Part shown: positions 9,274 to 33,852 of the stretch, piece by piece | How the letters are laid out: each line of letters begins with the position of its first letter | How positions within the stretch are numbered: position 1 is the stretch's first letter | NCBI RefSeq assembly: GCF_015557635.1 | Contig: NZ_JADNOP010000001.1 | Span: forward strand, 285,582-349,581 | DNA length: 64,000 bases | DNA from: Fusicatenibacter saccharivorans | GTDB taxonomy: Bacteria; Bacillota; Clostridia; Lachnospirales; Lachnospiraceae | Direction: 5' to 3' | The notes under the pieces: generated by a model | The model's database searches: none | Told to the model about the DNA's origin: nothing | What the model saw: the letters and a program-made list of their open reading frames with translations, nothing else | Position numbers and translations under genes: made by a program

Positions 9274-9580
9274 AAAAAAAGACCCCGCCCCACAAAGGGA
9301 CGAGATCTGAAATTTCGCGGTACCACCCTGATTTCTGCAGATACTTCCTGCAGACACTCATAACCGGTGCTGTAACGTACACCAAACGTCTGTCCCTACT
9401 TGCATTTCCAGTATCCTGCTATGCGTTCCGGACATCTGCTCCAATGCGAAATTTGAAATATTCCTGAACCTGAAGGAGCTTGCAGCCGATGACTCCCTCT
9501 CTCTGGCGGAAAAAATATTTCTCTGAACATCTTCACAGCATTTTTCCTGTTAGATTATTTATAAAACTTTCATAAACAAT
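9273..9580 (-). promoter_or_regulatory. T-box leader (tRNA-Phe) of pheST
   Basis: The T-box consensus AGGGTGGTACCGCG is present on the minus strand (9329-9316), followed by an 11-bp terminator (GATCTCGTCCC/GGGGCGGGGTC, 9308-9281) and seven Us. A long stem I region lies at about 9380-9560. Two UUC triplets (9457-9455 and 9450-9448) are candidate Phe specifier codons. Uncharged tRNA-Phe would pair with the specifier and T-box and prevent termination. Confidence 0.93.
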
Positions 9581-15194: not shown

Positions 15195-15252
15195 ATCTCA
15201 TTCTATGCACACGGCTTTTTGTCCGATTCCTTTTCTTTTTGCGATTTTTCCT

Positions 15253-15281
15253 TGACAAATACCGCCCTATGGTATATAGTA
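15253..15281 (+). promoter_or_regulatory. Strong plus-strand promoter of the B12-riboswitch RNA
   Basis: TTGACA (15253-15258), 17-base spacer, TATAGT (15276-15281). It points away from the divergent SpoIID-like gene and into the cobalamin riboswitch, with transcription expected near 15288. Confidence 0.82.
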
Positions 15282-15309
15282 CGGTTGTGTATAAATTTCA
15301 TATCAACAT

Positions 15310-15492
15310 CCAGAGTGCATCAAAAGAAGATCCGTCTTTTGGTGAGAGAGGGAATTCAGGTGAGATTCCTGGGCGATCCGGTCACTGTAATCAGGGAGTG
15401 AAGCATAACAAATCCATTGTATGTCCGCAACATATGAGAAGGAATGTGGAACGATGATCTGTAAGTCAGGAAACCTGCTCTGTATGCATAGG
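15310..15492 (+). ncRNA. Cobalamin riboswitch aptamer
   Basis: Contains the class I cobalamin core in order: GAGAGGGAA (15346), GGTGAGATTCC (15359), GGGCGATCCGGTCACTGTA (15371) and AAGTCAGGAAACCTGC (15463-15478), closed by a TGCAT/ATGCA P1 pairing (15315/15485). It senses adenosylcobalamin or a related corrinoid. Unusually, no protein gene follows: a structured RNA and a terminator complete the transcript. The remaining 15195-16071 interval holds only this transcript, a bidirectional terminator and a palindromic element. Confidence 0.9.
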
Positions 15493-15529
15493 GTTGATGC
15501 TTCCGATGAAAGCTTCCATTCAAAGACTA

Positions 15530-15749
15530 TTATGGGATATGGAATGTCTGAAAATTTTCGATTAGATTTTTAGAAACCTTCGAGCGAGATTTATGCATTG
15601 CATTAAACGGCCGGGTAAACCGTTTCAGATTCTGGTTTCGCCTGTTCTTAGTCAGGCGCCATCCTCCGCTTAAAGGTGTCTGCTATTCCGCTTGCAGGTT
15701 GATTCAGATGGCGAAGCGGTTACCCACCTCTGAAAAGAATATGACATAA
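15530..15749 (+). ncRNA. Structured non-coding RNA downstream of the B12 riboswitch, 6S-like candidate
   Basis: About 220 nt with no convincing ORF. A closing stem TTATGggATAT/ATATgaCATAA (15530/15749), an inner stem GGGTAaACCG/CGGTTACCC (15613/15725), a hairpin CGCCTG/CAGGCG (15639/15658) and CGCCATC/GATGGCG can be drawn. Four blocks match the 6S RNA at 17187-17382 in the same order: GGAATGT (15541), GAAACCT (15573), TTAAACGG (15603) and GCGGTTACCCACCT (15716; 13 of 14 bases identical). It may be a second, divergent 6S RNA whose synthesis is set by B12. The 6S assignment is inference. Confidence 0.6.
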
Positions 15750-15754
15750 CTGGT

Positions 15755-15796
15755 AAGATTCTGTTGGATTCGAAAACAGGGTCTTTTCTTTTTCTG
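15755..15796 (+). terminator. Terminator of the B12-riboswitch RNA
   Basis: An 11-bp stem AAGATTCTGTT/AACAGGGTCTT (15755-15765 / 15775-15785, two G-U pairs) with a nine-base loop is followed by TTCTTTTTCTG. It ends the transcript about 500 bases after the promoter, with no coding sequence between. Confidence 0.75.
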
Positions 15797-15831
15797 TTTT
15801 TTCAGAATTCGTTTTCTGCATATTTTCCCAT

Positions 15832-15892: not shown

Positions 15893-15901
15893 TGCTGTTT
15901 C

Positions 15902-16061
15902 TATAGCAAGACCCGAAAATAATGCAAAAAAGGCAGTGCTGCAGAGCGCGAATTGCAAGGAACAGATTTGAAGGCGTACCGAGGTACGACGAAAATCTGT
16001 GACGCAGTAATTCACGCTCTGCGGTGCTGAATTTTTTGCATTATTTTCGAGGATTGCTATA
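15902..16061. mobile_element. 160-bp palindromic MITE-like element
   Basis: Two long arms nearly mirror each other. Left arm blocks are TATAGCAA, GAAAATAATGCAAAAAA, CAGTGC and GCAGAGCG; right arm blocks are CGCTCTGC, GTGCTG, TTTTTTGCATTATTTTC and TTGCTATA. An inner hairpin is formed by ACAGATTTT/AAAATCTGT and CGTACC/GGTACG. There is no ORF. This is the structure of a miniature inverted-repeat element or large REP; it lies 11 bases from the galM stop codon. A TA target duplication is possible. Confidence 0.72.
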
Positions 16062-16071
16062 AAATAGGATC

Positions 16072-17115
16072 TTAGAAAATGAATTTGTATACGGTTGTGG
16101 TGTCGTAAGTATCGCCTGCCTCGAGGATCGGTTTCTCCTCACCCTCCTGGTTGATGGCATTCGGCACATACTGAGATTCCAGGCAGAAGCCGTTGCGTTT
16201 GTCATAGAATACCCCATTCTTTCCGGTAACCGGAGCAATGAAGTTTCCGGCGTAGAACTGAACGCATGGCAGATCCGTGAAGGCTTCCATGGTGATGCCG
16301 CTCTCTTTGCAGGATGCGACTGCCATCAGCTCAATGCTTCCCTCGACAGCCTTGTCCAGGATAAAGTTGTGGTCGTAGCCGCCGGTCAGTTTGAGCTGTT
16401 CGAAATCTGCTTCGATCTCTGCTCCGATTGCTTTCTCTCTGGTGAAATCCATCGGGGTTCCCTGTACCGGTGCATGCTCGCCGGTCGGGATGGATGCAGA
16501 ATCGATCACCGGGCTGAACTGCTCCGCTTTTAAGACAAGTGTCTGGTTCTCAATAGATCCGGCATCGTGGCCTGCCAGGTTGAAGTAGCTGTGGTTTGTC
16601 ATGTTGACAACGGTATCCTGATCGCAGCTTCCCTCATAGTGGATTTCTACGGCGTTCTCATCGGTCAGGGTATACGTAACGGACACTTCAAAGTTTCCCG
16701 GGAATCCCTGGTCTCCGTCCGGGCTCATCAGAACGAAGGTAACGGCGCTGTCATCCGCCTCTTCTACATTCCAGAGGCGGTAATCGTATCCGTCCGGGCC
16801 GCTGTGCAGGTTGTTGTTGTTCTCATTTTTTGCCAGCTGGTATGTTTTTCCGTGCAGTTCAAATGCTGCTCCCGCGATACGGTTTCCGTTTCTTCCGATG
16901 GTGGCTCCAAAATGGCTTCCGTCGGTCTCATAGCCGGTTACGGAGTCAAATCCAAGGACAACGTCTCTCTTCTTTCCATCCTTATCCGGAACGAGAACCG
17001 ATACCAGATGTGCGCCGTAATCGGTTACACTGATTTCCATTCCGTTTTTATTGGAGAGCGTGTAGAGCAATGCTTCTTTTCCGTCTTTTGTTGTTCCAAA
17101 ACCCTGTTTTTTCAT
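16072..17115 (-). CDS. galM: Aldose 1-epimerase (galactose mutarotase)
   Basis: Interconverts alpha and beta anomers of galactose/glucose, feeding the Leloir pathway. The 347-residue protein shows NNLHSGPDGYDYRLW (substrate-binding His and flanking residues), the catalytic His in MTNHSYFNL and the catalytic Glu in FCLESQ near the C-terminus. It starts at ATG 17115, where GGAG precedes it; an in-frame extension upstream overlaps the 6S RNA and its terminator and is not coding. It has no gal neighbours. Since the 6S terminator ends only about 32 bases upstream, galM may be expressed by read-through from the 6S promoter, as no separate promoter is evident. Confidence 0.95.
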   Translation of the reverse strand: MKKQGFGTTKDGKEALLYTLSNKNGMEISVTDYGAHLVSVLVPDKDGKKRDVVLGFDSVTGYETDGSHFGATIGRNGNRIAGAAFELHGKTYQLAKNENNNNLHSGPDGYDYRLWNVEEADDSAVTFVLMSPDGDQGFPGNFEVSVTYTLTDENAVEIHYEGSCDQDTVVNMTNHSYFNLAGHDAGSIENQTLVLKAEQFSPVIDSASIPTGEHAPVQGTPMDFTREKAIGAEIEADFEQLKLTGGYDHNFILDKAVEGSIELMAVASCKESGITMEAFTDLPCVQFYAGNFIAPVTGKNGVFYDKRNGFCLESQYVPNAINQEGEEKPILEAGDTYDTTTVYKFIF

Positions 17116-17178: not shown

Positions 17179-17186
17179 TCTCTTTT

Positions 17187-17382
17187 GTAACCCCGGAATG
17201 CCGTTTCCCATACTTTGACTCCTAGCAACGCAAGCTAGGTGGGTAGCCGCAGTCATCATTTCTGCCTTCCACTGACGTCTGTTTCCAGGGTGGCCTGACA
17301 TCCACATGACAATAATAAGCCTCCCGTTTAAAGTAAATGTAGGTTCAAAATAATGAGATCATCGAACATTCCAGGAAGTTAC
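17187..17382 (-). ncRNA. ssrS: 6S RNA
   Basis: A 196-nt transcript with the length and shape of 6S RNA, which binds the sigma-A RNA polymerase holoenzyme and mimics an open promoter. A long closing stem pairs GTAACttC..GGAATGtt (5', 17382) with ggCATTCCGGGGTTAC (3', 17187). The 5' strand continues AATGTTCG, as in E. coli 6S (GAUGUUCG). Further sequence includes GAACCT, TTTAAACGG, GCGGCTACCCACCT (17250-17237) and a CTAGC/GCTAG hairpin. It is preceded by a consensus promoter and followed by a terminator. It sits between spoIVA and galM. Confidence 0.8.
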
Positions 17383-19125: not shown

Positions 19126-19977
19126 TCAGCTGTTTTTTCTCATGGCAGCCTCTACCACATGGCCGACCAGAACAGATGTGGTAACGGATCCTACGCCGCC
19201 CGGAACCGGTGTGATTGCCTCAACGATCGGCTCAGCTTTTGCGTATGCAACGTCTCCGCAGAGTTTTCCTTCTTCGTTTACGTTGATTCCGACATCAATA
19301 ACGGTCTGGCCTGCACGCAAGTAAGTATCATCCACAACACCTGCACGGCCTGCTGCTACGATCACGATATCTGCCTCTTTGACTACAGACGGCATGTCTT
19401 TCGTTCTGGTATGGCAGATGGTTACGGTTGCATTTTTCTTTAACAGCATCATGGCGGCCGGTTTTCCTACAACGAGGCTGCGGCCTACAACAACAGCTTT
19501 TTTGCCGGTGCAGTCGATACCGTAGTGGTCGAGGATCTCCATGCAGGCCTGCGGAGTACATGGCGGGAAGCCCTGTTTTGTTCCGGCGAATACGCCTACC
19601 ATGGAACCGTCTGTGATACCGTCTACGTCCTTCTCCGGGGAGAGTGCTTTGATGACTGCTGCCTCATCGAGATGTTTCGGAAGCGGACGGAAAATCAGAA
19701 CGCCATGGATAGAATCATCTTTGTTTACTTTGTCGATGGTAGCCATCAGCTCTTCCTGGGTAACGTCTGCCGGAAGAAGGAATTTCTCGTATGCAACGCC
19801 TAAGGTCTCACAGCGTTTGGTTGCTCCTCTTTCGTAGGAAAGGTCATCCTCTCTCTCTCCGACACGGATGATTCCGAGAGTCGGTTTCACTCCTTTTGCT
19901 TCCAGCTCTGCTACATTTGCTTTGATCTTCTCATTTAATGCTGCTGTTACTTCTTTTCCTAATAACTGTTTTGCCAT
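19126..19977 (-). CDS. folD: Methylene-THF dehydrogenase / methenyl-THF cyclohydrolase
   Basis: Interconverts 5,10-methenyl- and 5,10-methylene-tetrahydrofolate, and in most bacteria also 10-formyl-THF. The 283-residue protein has the FolD signatures: YERGATKRCETLGV with the catalytic Lys, and VVGRSLVVGKPAAMMLL for NAD(P) binding, plus PVPGGVGSVTT near the end. It is the last gene of the acetogenesis operon, 87 bases after fchA, with GGAGG before ATG 19977. Because a separate cyclohydrolase (FchA) lies directly upstream, this FolD may act mainly as the dehydrogenase step here. Confidence 0.96.
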   Translation of the reverse strand: MAKQLLGKEVTAALNEKIKANVAELEAKGVKPTLGIIRVGEREDDLSYERGATKRCETLGVAYEKFLLPADVTQEELMATIDKVNKDDSIHGVLIFRPLPKHLDEAAVIKALSPEKDVDGITDGSMVGVFAGTKQGFPPCTPQACMEILDHYGIDCTGKKAVVVGRSLVVGKPAAMMLLKKNATVTICHTRTKDMPSVVKEADIVIVAAGRAGVVDDTYLRAGQTVIDVGINVNEEGKLCGDVAYAKAEPIVEAITPVPGGVGSVTTSVLVGHVVEAAMRKNS

Positions 19978-20064: not shown

Positions 20065-20697
20065 TCAGGCTTTCAGTCTTCCCAGTACGTTCTGGAAAAT
20101 TTCGTCTGCTTTTACGGTATAAACCGCAAGCATCTCATCGCATTTTTTGTTCAGCTCTTCTGCGTATTCCCGGTTTTTCATGGATTTCGTGTTGATATAT
20201 ACATTCAGGGAAGCACCCTCTAAGGCTGCTTTGCAGAATGCTGCGCCAACACCTGCGTCACTGATCGCAAGTGCAGAACCTTTTGCTGCAAATTCTACGA
20301 TCAGGTCGATTGCTTCGCAGCATTTTTCCATAATTTCCATTGGAACAGAGCAGGCATCCTTCAGCACAATCTCCATGACTCTTGCTTTTTCTGCCTTCTC
20401 CTCCTCTGTCTCGCGCGGCATGCCGTATGCTTTGGAGAGCGGTTCAAACACTTCTGCATCGCGCTCGATCAGGTGAAGCAGTTCGTCCTGAAGCGTGGTT
20501 GCTTTCGCCATCAGCTCTTTCATTTCCTCTTCGACATCCGCATATTTCTTTTTACCTACTGTCAGCGCACCAACCATGTTGCCAAGTGCTGTGCCGACAG
20601 CGCCAACCAGTGCAGAAGCTCCGCCGCCGCCCGGAACCGGTGCTTTGGAACCGAGCACTTCTACAAACTCATTGCAAGGTACTGTTGAAAATCCCAT
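20065..20697 (-). CDS. fchA: Methenyltetrahydrofolate cyclohydrolase
   Basis: A 210-residue cyclodeaminase/cyclohydrolase-family protein (as in the C-terminal domain of formiminotransferase-cyclodeaminase). In acetogens FchA converts 10-formyl-THF to 5,10-methenyl-THF in the methyl branch. The glycine-rich PVPGGGGASALVGAVGTALGNMV segment (about 20-42) is the family hallmark. It starts at ATG 20697 behind GCGGAGG. It is placed between the DUF3786 gene and folD, in pathway order with folD. Confidence 0.95.
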   Translation of the reverse strand: MGFSTVPCNEFVEVLGSKAPVPGGGGASALVGAVGTALGNMVGALTVGKKKYADVEEEMKELMAKATTLQDELLHLIERDAEVFEPLSKAYGMPRETEEEKAEKARVMEIVLKDACSVPMEIMEKCCEAIDLIVEFAAKGSALAISDAGVGAAFCKAALEGASLNVYINTKSMKNREYAEELNKKCDEMLAVYTVKADEIFQNVLGRLKA

Positions 20698-32919: not shown

Positions 32920-33852
32920 TTAAACCAGTGTGCAAAGGCCGGATCTGTCGATGATTTCAGATACGTCTTTCCATTTATTCAGTGCATACAGATGAATTCC
33001 ATTGACACCGAGTGCACGGTATGCATCAATCTGTTTTACGGTATATTCGATACCCTCTTCTTTGAACTCTGCAACTTTCTTGTCGTAGAATACGTCGAAC
33101 GGTTTGCCCTCTGCATCTTTTGCTGCAAATGGGTTCGGGAACAGCCAGTGTCTGGAGATCATTCTGGAAAGCTCTCTGTCCATAACACAGCCGTTTCTGG
33201 AAAGTGCCATGTTGATGGTAGCTGCCTGATCCAGGATCGGCATAACTCCAACGTCTACCGGCATGGTGATTCCTGCTTTACGGATTGCATCGAGCCAGTA
33301 TTTGAACTGCTCCATATCCCAGCAGAGCTGTGTCATGATGTAGTCAGCTCCGTTGTCCTGTTTCTGTTTCAGAACTGCGATATCAGACTCCAGACTTCTG
33401 CAGGAGATGTGGCCTTCCGGTGAACCTGCAACAGCGATTTCAAATTTGTCGCCGTAGGTATCACGTACGAATTTTACAAGATCCGTAGCGTAGTCAAAGT
33501 CACCGCAGGTTGTGGTCTCGCCAAGCGGAATATCACCGCGCAGTGCCAGCATGTGGTCTACGCCGTCAGCCAGATACTGATCCAGCTGTTCTTTAATTCC
33601 TTCTTTTGTGTTTTTGATAACGGTGAAATGAGTAACCGGTGTGGTTCCGGCATTTTTGATCATCTGACATACTTCACGGTTTGCTCCGACGTTTCCGCCG
33701 CCTGCTCCGTATGTACAGGAAATGTAAGACGGGTTGTACTTCATCAGGTGGTCGATGGTACCCGGCAGATTCTGCAGTCCCTTCTCTGTCTTTGGCGGGA
33801 ACAGCTCAAAAGACAGAAGGGTCTTGTTTTTCATCTCTTCTGAAAGTTTCAT
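32920..33852 (-). CDS. metF: Methylenetetrahydrofolate reductase
   Basis: Reduces 5,10-methylene-THF to 5-methyl-THF, the substrate of AcsE. The 310-residue FAD-binding TIM-barrel protein has the MetF signature FELFPPKTEKG (residues 16-26) and the flavin-site context LALRGDIP. It starts at ATG 33852 behind GGAGG. Acetogens usually use MetF with the partner MetV, often encoded beside it; no metV is found here, so it is elsewhere or this enzyme is MetF-only. Confidence 0.96.
   Translation of the reverse strand: MKLSEEMKNKTLLSFELFPPKTEKGLQNLPGTIDHLMKYNPSYISCTYGAGGGNVGANREVCQMIKNAGTTPVTHFTVIKNTKEGIKEQLDQYLADGVDHMLALRGDIPLGETTTCGDFDYATDLVKFVRDTYGDKFEIAVAGSPEGHISCRSLESDIAVLKQKQDNGADYIMTQLCWDMEQFKYWLDAIRKAGITMPVDVGVMPILDQAATINMALSRNGCVMDRELSRMISRHWLFPNPFAAKDAEGKPFDVFYDKKVAEFKEEGIEYTVKQIDAYRALGVNGIHLYALNKWKDVSEIIDRSGLCTLV

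Follow-up and report, generated by a model that had tools for sequence, protein, structure and literature searches.

A locus in the genome of Fusicatenibacter saccharivorans probably encodes a small RNA (sRNA) that is gated by a cobalamin riboswitch and acts in trans, by pairing with Shine-Dalgarno (SD) sequences, on genes of corrinoid-dependent one-carbon (C1) metabolism. The locus is located in a 64,000-nucleotide stretch of contig NZ_JADNOP010000001.1, denoted the window hereafter; all positions refer to it (Table 1). The features that underlie this assignment are read from the nucleotide sequences: a promoter, a cobalamin aptamer, a conserved downstream module, pairing of the 5' leader with this module, a hairpin loop, and a complementarity of this loop to SDs that recurs in other genomes.

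In the mechanism that we infer, transcription from the leader onwards would yield a regulatory RNA of about 0.5 kb that stands alone and folds back on itself, its 5' end paired with the downstream module at two segments and the motif CCUCCGC exposed in a hairpin loop. Under B12 scarcity, the RNA would be made in full length and fold correctly, and its loop would pair in the cell with the GCGGAGG SD of metF, folD, fchA and a 4Fe-4S ferredoxin gene, which would block translation of these genes. Production of methyl-tetrahydrofolate, which is unusable without a working corrinoid protein, would then cease, a situation comparable to the methyl-folate trap. It is a plausible but tentative suggestion that this is a vitamin-sparing sRNA which, at low B12, silences metF, folD and fchA (the methyl branch of the Wood-Ljungdahl pathway) together with the ferredoxin gene and so prevents a bacterial methyl-folate trap.

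Table 1 Features of the RNA locus and its proposed targets in the window
Feature	Position	Strand	Basis or remark
Promoter TTGACA-17-TATAGT	15252-15280	+	11/12 consensus bases
5' leader of the RNA	15288-15304	+	RNAalifold; swap test; A/T-run correspondence
Cobalamin riboswitch aptamer RF00174	15296-15496	+	Rfam match; its 5' flank overlaps the leader
Conserved GGUUGA-GCUUCCGA-AAAG-UUCCAU segment	15492-15527	+	Directly 3' of the aptamer; alignment
P0a 3' strand GATATGGAAT	15536-15545	+	RNAalifold; swap test
Conserved block ATTTATGCATTGCATTAAACGGC	15589-15611	+	Contains the P0b 3' strand (15590-15597)
Hairpin CAGGCGCC / GGTGTCTG	15653-15682	+	Both-sided stem changes (RNAalifold)
Loop AUCCUCCGCUUAAA	15661-15674	+	CCUCCGC core 15663-15669; proposed seed
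Second conserved pyrimidine motif TATTCCGCTTGCAGG	15684-15698	+	Alignment
Intrinsic terminator, 11-bp stem and U-run	15755-15795	+	Read from sequence
folD, proposed target	19126-19977	-	SD AAAAGCGGAGGAU; NCBIfam
fchA, proposed target	20065-20697	-	SD AUAAGCGGAGGAA; NCBIfam
metF, proposed target	32920-33852	-	SD UAAAGCGGAGGU; NCBIfam

Organization of the locus

A sequence-only reading of this DNA had proposed a consensus promoter, a complete cobalamin aptamer and an 11-bp terminator followed by a U-run, and all three are borne out. The promoter is as listed in Table 1, and in the scan of the window the aptamer matches RF00174 over the full model length with a score of 79.3 bits (E = 7.2e-18), far above the gathering score of 31.5. 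In the terminator, AAGATTCTGTT (15755-15765) pairs with AACAGGGTCTT (15775-15785), and the U-run follows; the 9-nt loop exceeds the limit of 8 in a simple terminator scan, hence its absence from the list produced by that scan.

The next gene downstream, galM, is convergent, on the minus strand, and ends at 16072, such that the window contains no gene behind the aptamer that would be controlled in cis. As judged by sequence, the terminator would stop the RNA before galM, with no antisense run into the neighbour. Open reading frames in the segment reach 50 codons (15421-15573), but in the alignment no frame is conserved within 15500-15750, where indels or stops break the frames, and a translated product of this region was rejected for lack of a conserved frame. 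The downstream part gave no credible match to another Rfam family at E up to 5. The layout is that of a stand-alone non-coding RNA (ncRNA), with a promoter, an aptamer, no conserved frame and a terminator, and the central claim of the sequence-only reading, a riboswitch that precedes a structured RNA instead of a gene, is upheld by the convergent galM and by conservation of the RNA across genera without a conserved frame. The genome encodes two other cobalamin riboswitches, each with a long same-strand ORF downstream; the module models described below give no score at either.

The fold energy of 15530-15749 yields z = -2.86, with none of 200 shuffles as good, and that of 15497-15800 yields z = -1.44, with 6 of 100 shuffles as good. 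Because of the latter value, fold energy alone is weak evidence, and conservation, as seen in the alignments, provides the stronger evidence for a structured RNA. The folded 220-nt region that had been proposed is indeed a conserved structured module, but its closing partner appears to be the 5' leader, not a stem inside 15530-15749.

The vicinity of the RNA gene contains several other elements. Between the RNA gene and galM, there is a large imperfect palindrome (15899-16064; 56-nt arms, 82% complementary, 54 nt apart), which may be a repeated MITE-like element; a similar start, CTATAGCAATCGTCGAAAACAATATGCA, occurs in another locus (L111). A 6S RNA (RF00013, 61.3 bits; 17186-17380, minus strand) is located directly upstream of galM, and a T-box leader (RF00230, 101.5 bits; 9293-9545, minus strand) precedes a gene that reads as pheS.

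Conservation of the downstream module

In a DNA search of 98 genomes, the aptamer and the downstream part were detected in five of the six genomes of the same genus; the sixth is 75% complete. The elements GGUUGA.GCUUCCGA..AAAG.UUCCAU, GAUAUGGAAUG and GAUUUAUGCAUUGCAUUAAACGGC are nearly invariant in the alignment, whereas the frames and flanks vary. By eye, the RNAs of the five relatives end in a terminator (a hairpin ending CCCG, then a U-run); at this site the window has a degenerate counterpart, and the terminator in use is about 50 nt further on. With genes named by reading, the next gene is NUDIX-like and convergent in three of the relatives (G002, G003, G005) and co-directional in the other two, MATE-like in G006 and aminotransferase-like in G004, where the cassette is inverted between the same two genes. 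In G411 and G102, an aminotransferase-like gene precedes the RNA, as in G004 and G006.

The 397 genomes of the family were searched with a sequence-only model (R1) and with a second model built from 22 members (R2). R1 matched 17 genomes at E up to 0.001 and R2 matched 39 at E up to 0.01. In the best 23 of these 39, the module lies directly behind an RF00174 aptamer (in G002, this layout was placed by alignment); the next seven matches (L101-L107) have no aptamer, and the aptamer check covered the best 30 genomes. Together with G003-G006 (by alignment), L025 and G649, the search of other Lachnospiraceae proposed in the sequence-only reading places the module behind an aptamer at 29 loci of the family, spread across more than 10 genera. 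A search of 295 genomes of the order detected no aptamer-linked match outside the family, where the matches in G585 and G082 come without an aptamer. The exact pattern TTATGCAN{2,10}TTAAACGGCA occurs in 9 of the 397 genomes, with no reversed-control hit among the matches listed; the pattern matches in G388, G321, G325 and G377 lack an aptamer and, on reading the sequence, were judged to be due to chance.

The 5' leader pairs with the module

In the RNAalifold consensus of seven members, the leader forms two long-range helices with the module. In P0a, AUUUCAUAUC (15295-15304) pairs with GAUAUGGAAU (15536-15545), and in P0b, UGUAUAAA (15288-15295) pairs with UUUAUGCA (15590-15597). The length of the A-run in the leader tracks that of the T-run in the module in 22 of 22 members, which fall into three length classes (6, 15 and 1 members). 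In a swap test with 15 representatives, cognate leaders outperform permuted ones, with equally good results in only 12 of 20,000 permutations for P0a and 46 of 20,000 for P0b. Leader UUCUAUAUC is matched by module GAUAUAGAA in G411 and G102, and leader AUUCCAUAUU by module AAUAUGGAAU in G244; in G268, UUAUU faces AAUAA (by eye, outside any count). When 14 RNAs are folded singly, P0b is recovered in 8 and P0a in 1. On this comparative evidence, the aptamer and the module are parts of one RNA, and the leader belongs to the module. A local hairpin TTCCAT:ATGGAA was considered as a switch and rejected, since the co-varying partner of the module in G411 is the leader, not that segment.

Possible gating by B12 and the genes next to the RNA

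By eye, an intrinsic terminator is located between the aptamer-side hairpin and the module in G439, G149, G244, G032, G146, G437, G176 and G359, and also in G431, G306, G268, G390, G034, G179 and G649. As far as the sequence goes, these members have the layout of a B12-OFF switch, in which the module would be made only on read-through. No such attenuator is visible in the window, its genus, G314, G282, G411, G102, G433, G137 or L025, and therefore, in this class, any effect of B12 must act via refolding or stability. The sign of the B12 response, with the RNA made when the vitamin is scarce, is what we infer.

The attenuator terminator that is kept at many loci would also suit a different interpretation, under which the module is an extended expression platform of ordinary cis riboswitches, and the orphans are either gene-less relics or act on the following gene, for example, one of the MATE type. 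Five loci precede genes with a B12-related reading, namely, a cbiD-like ORF (G032) and small cysteine-rich genes (G238, G306, G179, G649), and in G006, G390, G034 and G179, the RNA is followed by a same-strand gene of the MATE type (in the latter, behind the cysteine-rich gene). Because such genes recur in several genera, the cis reading is slightly stronger there, and at such loci, where a co-directional gene follows, a role in cis is possible. As an account of the family, this interpretation nevertheless appears distinctly unlikely. Relics should decay, yet the module is nearly invariant in the genus of the window; the surroundings differ (galM, NUDIX-like, MATE, aminotransferase); the window, G002, G003, G005, L025, G314 and G431 all have a convergent gene downstream of the RNA; and in the five same-genus relatives the RNA ends in a terminator.

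The gene-linked members L055, L097, L098 and L109 lie upstream of a small cysteine-rich gene (PF04071, a match tested for L097 in G306 only), the product of which may function in B12 metabolism. The loci with MATE-type transporters are L005, L098, L099 and L100.

In 6 of the 15 loci of the family that were examined, a gene that reads as valS is downstream on the same strand (G282, G411, G102, G244, G176 and, with other genes in between, G359), so that the RNA could be conceived of as a long cis leader of valS in the genera where the two are adjacent. We consider this highly improbable given that valS is on the other side and points away in G314, that a T-box leader separates the RNA from valS in G411, G244, G176 and G359, that a separate promoter is readable in G282, G411 and G102, and that none of the 55 genes of the window reads as valS. 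Adjacency to a gene with this reading was noted for L048, L049, L050, L053, L056, L060 and L061, in some cases with the T-box leader in between; the valS and aminotransferase-like surroundings perhaps represent an old neighbourhood of the RNA.

The CCUCCGC loop

The hairpin that carries the proposed seed is supported by changes on both sides of its stem. All six relatives in the alignment have CCUCCGCAA as the loop, the window has CCUCCGCUU, and CCUCCGC occurs in each of the 7 RNAs aligned. The folding prediction leaves this core unpaired with a probability of 0.99-1 in the window RNA; the single-sequence folds of G004 and G006 place most of it in pairs, and that of G282 part of it. By eye, CCUCCGC is found in a second hairpin in G176, G390 and G034. 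CCUCC is a generic anti-SD sequence. The second conserved pyrimidine motif has no clear targets when matched to the starts of the 55 window genes.

Predicted targets in the F. saccharivorans genome

The window encompasses the Wood-Ljungdahl genes acsC, acsD, acsE, acsV, acsB, the CODH catalytic subunit gene, metF, fchA and folD (NCBIfam matches), in agreement with the corrinoid pathway that the sequence-only reading had named on the strength of AcsCD. The matches for metF, fchA and folD fall below the cut-offs of their own models, with no other reading for these genes. The best partners of the loop among the starts of the 55 window genes are fchA (-20.8), folD (-20.1) and metF (-17.0), followed by a gene at -15.7; the SDs of these three genes are AAGCGGAGG or AAAGCGGAGG, and all three lie in the Wood-Ljungdahl cluster. 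The chance that the top three would all come from metF, folD, fchA and acsE, the four tetrahydrofolate C1 genes, is 1.5e-4. The link to corrinoid-dependent carbon fixation, originally a guess, gains support because the loop matches Wood-Ljungdahl genes. The same cluster includes a gene for a DUF3786 protein (PF12654; 20759-21463, minus strand), between acsV and fchA.

Genome-wide, GCGGAGG-N3-10-ATG occurs at 81 places, with 34 for the reversed control. Reading of 88 places in the fetched loci and the window gave 16 plausible gene starts, metF included, and the best partner among these is the start of the gene for a 126-aa 4Fe-4S ferredoxin (-26.4 kcal/mol). Its SD region is perfectly complementary to the RNA over 15 nt, 14 of which are in the loop and one in the stem; 0.027 perfect 15-nt matches are expected in the genome. 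This gene (L160:1123-1503, minus strand) encodes a multi-cluster ferredoxin and has a promoter-like sequence of its own. GCGGAGG also precedes genes outside the pathway, with readings as ispF, bcp and an ABC protein. The four start sites were also compared with those of 35 other genes of the window, and out of 488 segments (16 nt each) of the window RNA, the loop separates the two groups best; this comparison is partly circular, the four sites having been originally picked with the same loop. B12-binding proteins were considered as targets and rejected: the genome has only one PF02310 match, which was read as a radical-SAM type protein.

GCGGAGG sites in other RNA-bearing genomes

Among the RNA-bearing genomes searched, folD was found in 27 of 27, metF in 13 of 27 and the ferredoxin gene in 25 of 27. 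We compared genomes of the loop class with seven others, in which the RNA is directly before a gene with a B12-related reading or, in G359, another close ORF, or lacks CCUCCGC. In the loop class, the SD contains GCGGAGG in 7/7 metF, 12/18 ferredoxin, 6/19 fchA and 4/19 folD genes, as against 0/3, 0/6, 0/7 and 0/7, respectively, in the other class and 1/123 background genes; at least one target SD with GCGGAGG is present in 17 of the 19 loop-class genomes. Pooled, and with the tree ignored, the counts are 29/63 versus 0/23 (p = 1.6e-5); without the window genome they are 25/59 versus 0/23 (p = 4e-5) and versus 1/123 in the background (p = 2e-13), again ignoring the tree. None of these comparisons is phylogenetically independent. 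Counted by genus, the contrast is 8/11 (G282 being a miss) versus 0/6 (p = 0.009, tree ignored). An earlier count under other rules gave 17/45 target genes versus 3/99 background genes.

G437, G268, G390 and G034 were placed in the loop class before their downstream genes were looked at; co-directional genes follow 180-480 nt or more behind the CCUCCGC core, and none has a B12-related reading. G306 and G179 belong to the other class as gene-linked members; they have CCUCCGC but no GCGGAGG at the target genes, and sorting by the loop alone gives 29/69 versus 0/17 (p = 4e-4, tree ignored). Rows with an unrecognised start were dropped: the G282 ferredoxin gene (SD CAGGGAGG) and metF of G244 (SD ACGGAGG), G238 (no GCGGAGG seen) and G179 (a fragment with stops). 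The divergent folD of G282 and its fchA were left unscored. Scoring the G282 ferredoxin gene and G244 metF as misses yields 29/65 versus 0/23 (p = 1.9e-5, tree ignored). Three genomes with CCUCCGC (G176, G244, G282) have no GCGGAGG SD at their readable target genes. At metF, the base next to the core does co-vary (A in the window, U in several relatives), whereas at the ferredoxin site it shows no co-variation, with a loop A facing a target A in G002, G003, G005, G146, G437 and G268; because of this difference between the two genes, we do not claim co-variation next to the core.

The ferredoxin gene itself occurs in 25 of the 27 RNA-bearing genomes, as against 1 of 30 RNA-less genomes of the family, which were chosen for a completeness above 90% and the lack of a match to R1 or R2 (p = 9e-13, tree ignored). 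This co-occurrence may stem from a shared lifestyle, not from direct regulation. In the single RNA-less genome with the ferredoxin gene (G033), the SD of the gene holds GCGGAGG and no RNA was detected by R1, R2 or DNA search, making it either a case of a missed RNA or a counter-example.

The conserved RNA could also be B12-gated and yet act in another manner, as a protein sponge like EutX/Rli55 or through a structured function of its own, the SD matches then being a side effect of a C-rich loop. Such an RNA would account for the most conserved block, AUUUAUGCA..AUUAAACGGCAGGGUGA, which P0b explains in part and SD pairing not at all, and for G439 and G149, where the module is present with UUCCGCAA loops that contain no CCUCC. 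Nevertheless, this alternative seems rather unlikely: four genes, three of which belong to a single pathway, are enriched specifically in GCGGAGG, as opposed to plain AGGAGG, and this motif is absent from the other class and nearly absent from the background.

Discussion

To our knowledge, few regulatory RNAs are under riboswitch control. The Gram-positive trans-acting sRNAs RsaE/RoxS, FsrA and LhrC have a C-rich, single-stranded loop that is complementary to the SDs of several mRNAs. The window RNA differs from them in that it bears an aptamer for a metabolite and in that pairing of its 5' end into the module is predicted. Its aptamer resembles other RF00174 riboswitches in scoring well over the family cut-off, but it differs from the usual ones in that the window contains no cis gene and that a conserved leader and module, with long-range pairing, are added.

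Among published systems, the closest analogues combine a cobalamin aptamer with a regulatory RNA. As described in the relevant passages of PMC5821096 and PMC8079631, EutX of Enterococcus faecalis and Rli55 of Listeria monocytogenes have their own promoter and a cobalamin aptamer in front of an ncRNA that sequesters the ANTAR protein EutV, and act in trans, preventing B12-dependent catabolism without B12. By sequence, the window RNA shares with them, so described, the order of promoter, cobalamin aptamer and ncRNA; unlike the protein EutV, however, its proposed partners are the SD sites of several Wood-Ljungdahl and folate C1 mRNAs. AspocR (Rli39) of L. monocytogenes, as presented in the parts of PMC8079631 and PMC9943018 that deal with it, is a long antisense RNA against the neighbouring pocR that is controlled by a cobalamin riboswitch, lowers a B12-related function without B12 and is thought to hinder translation initiation. 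The window locus is similar to that account in having a cobalamin riboswitch before a putative regulatory RNA, but here the transcript would stop short of the convergent galM, and the genes proposed as targets are located elsewhere. Like the mechanism proposed here, EutX/Rli55 and AspocR dampen B12-dependent functions in the absence of the vitamin, although they do so by different means. In the open-licence PMC literature, we found no report of the RNA described here.

If the proposed mechanism is true, this would be, as far as we found, the first riboswitch-gated sRNA that acts on several mRNAs via SD pairing, and the fusion of a B12 aptamer to a multi-target mRNA-pairing sRNA would represent a further route by which a metabolite acts in trans. 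The proposal offers directly testable items, namely, four genes and a 7-nt pairing core. For the Lachnospiraceae, it would mean that the supply of B12 is tied to acetogenesis and to the flow of C1 units through folate.
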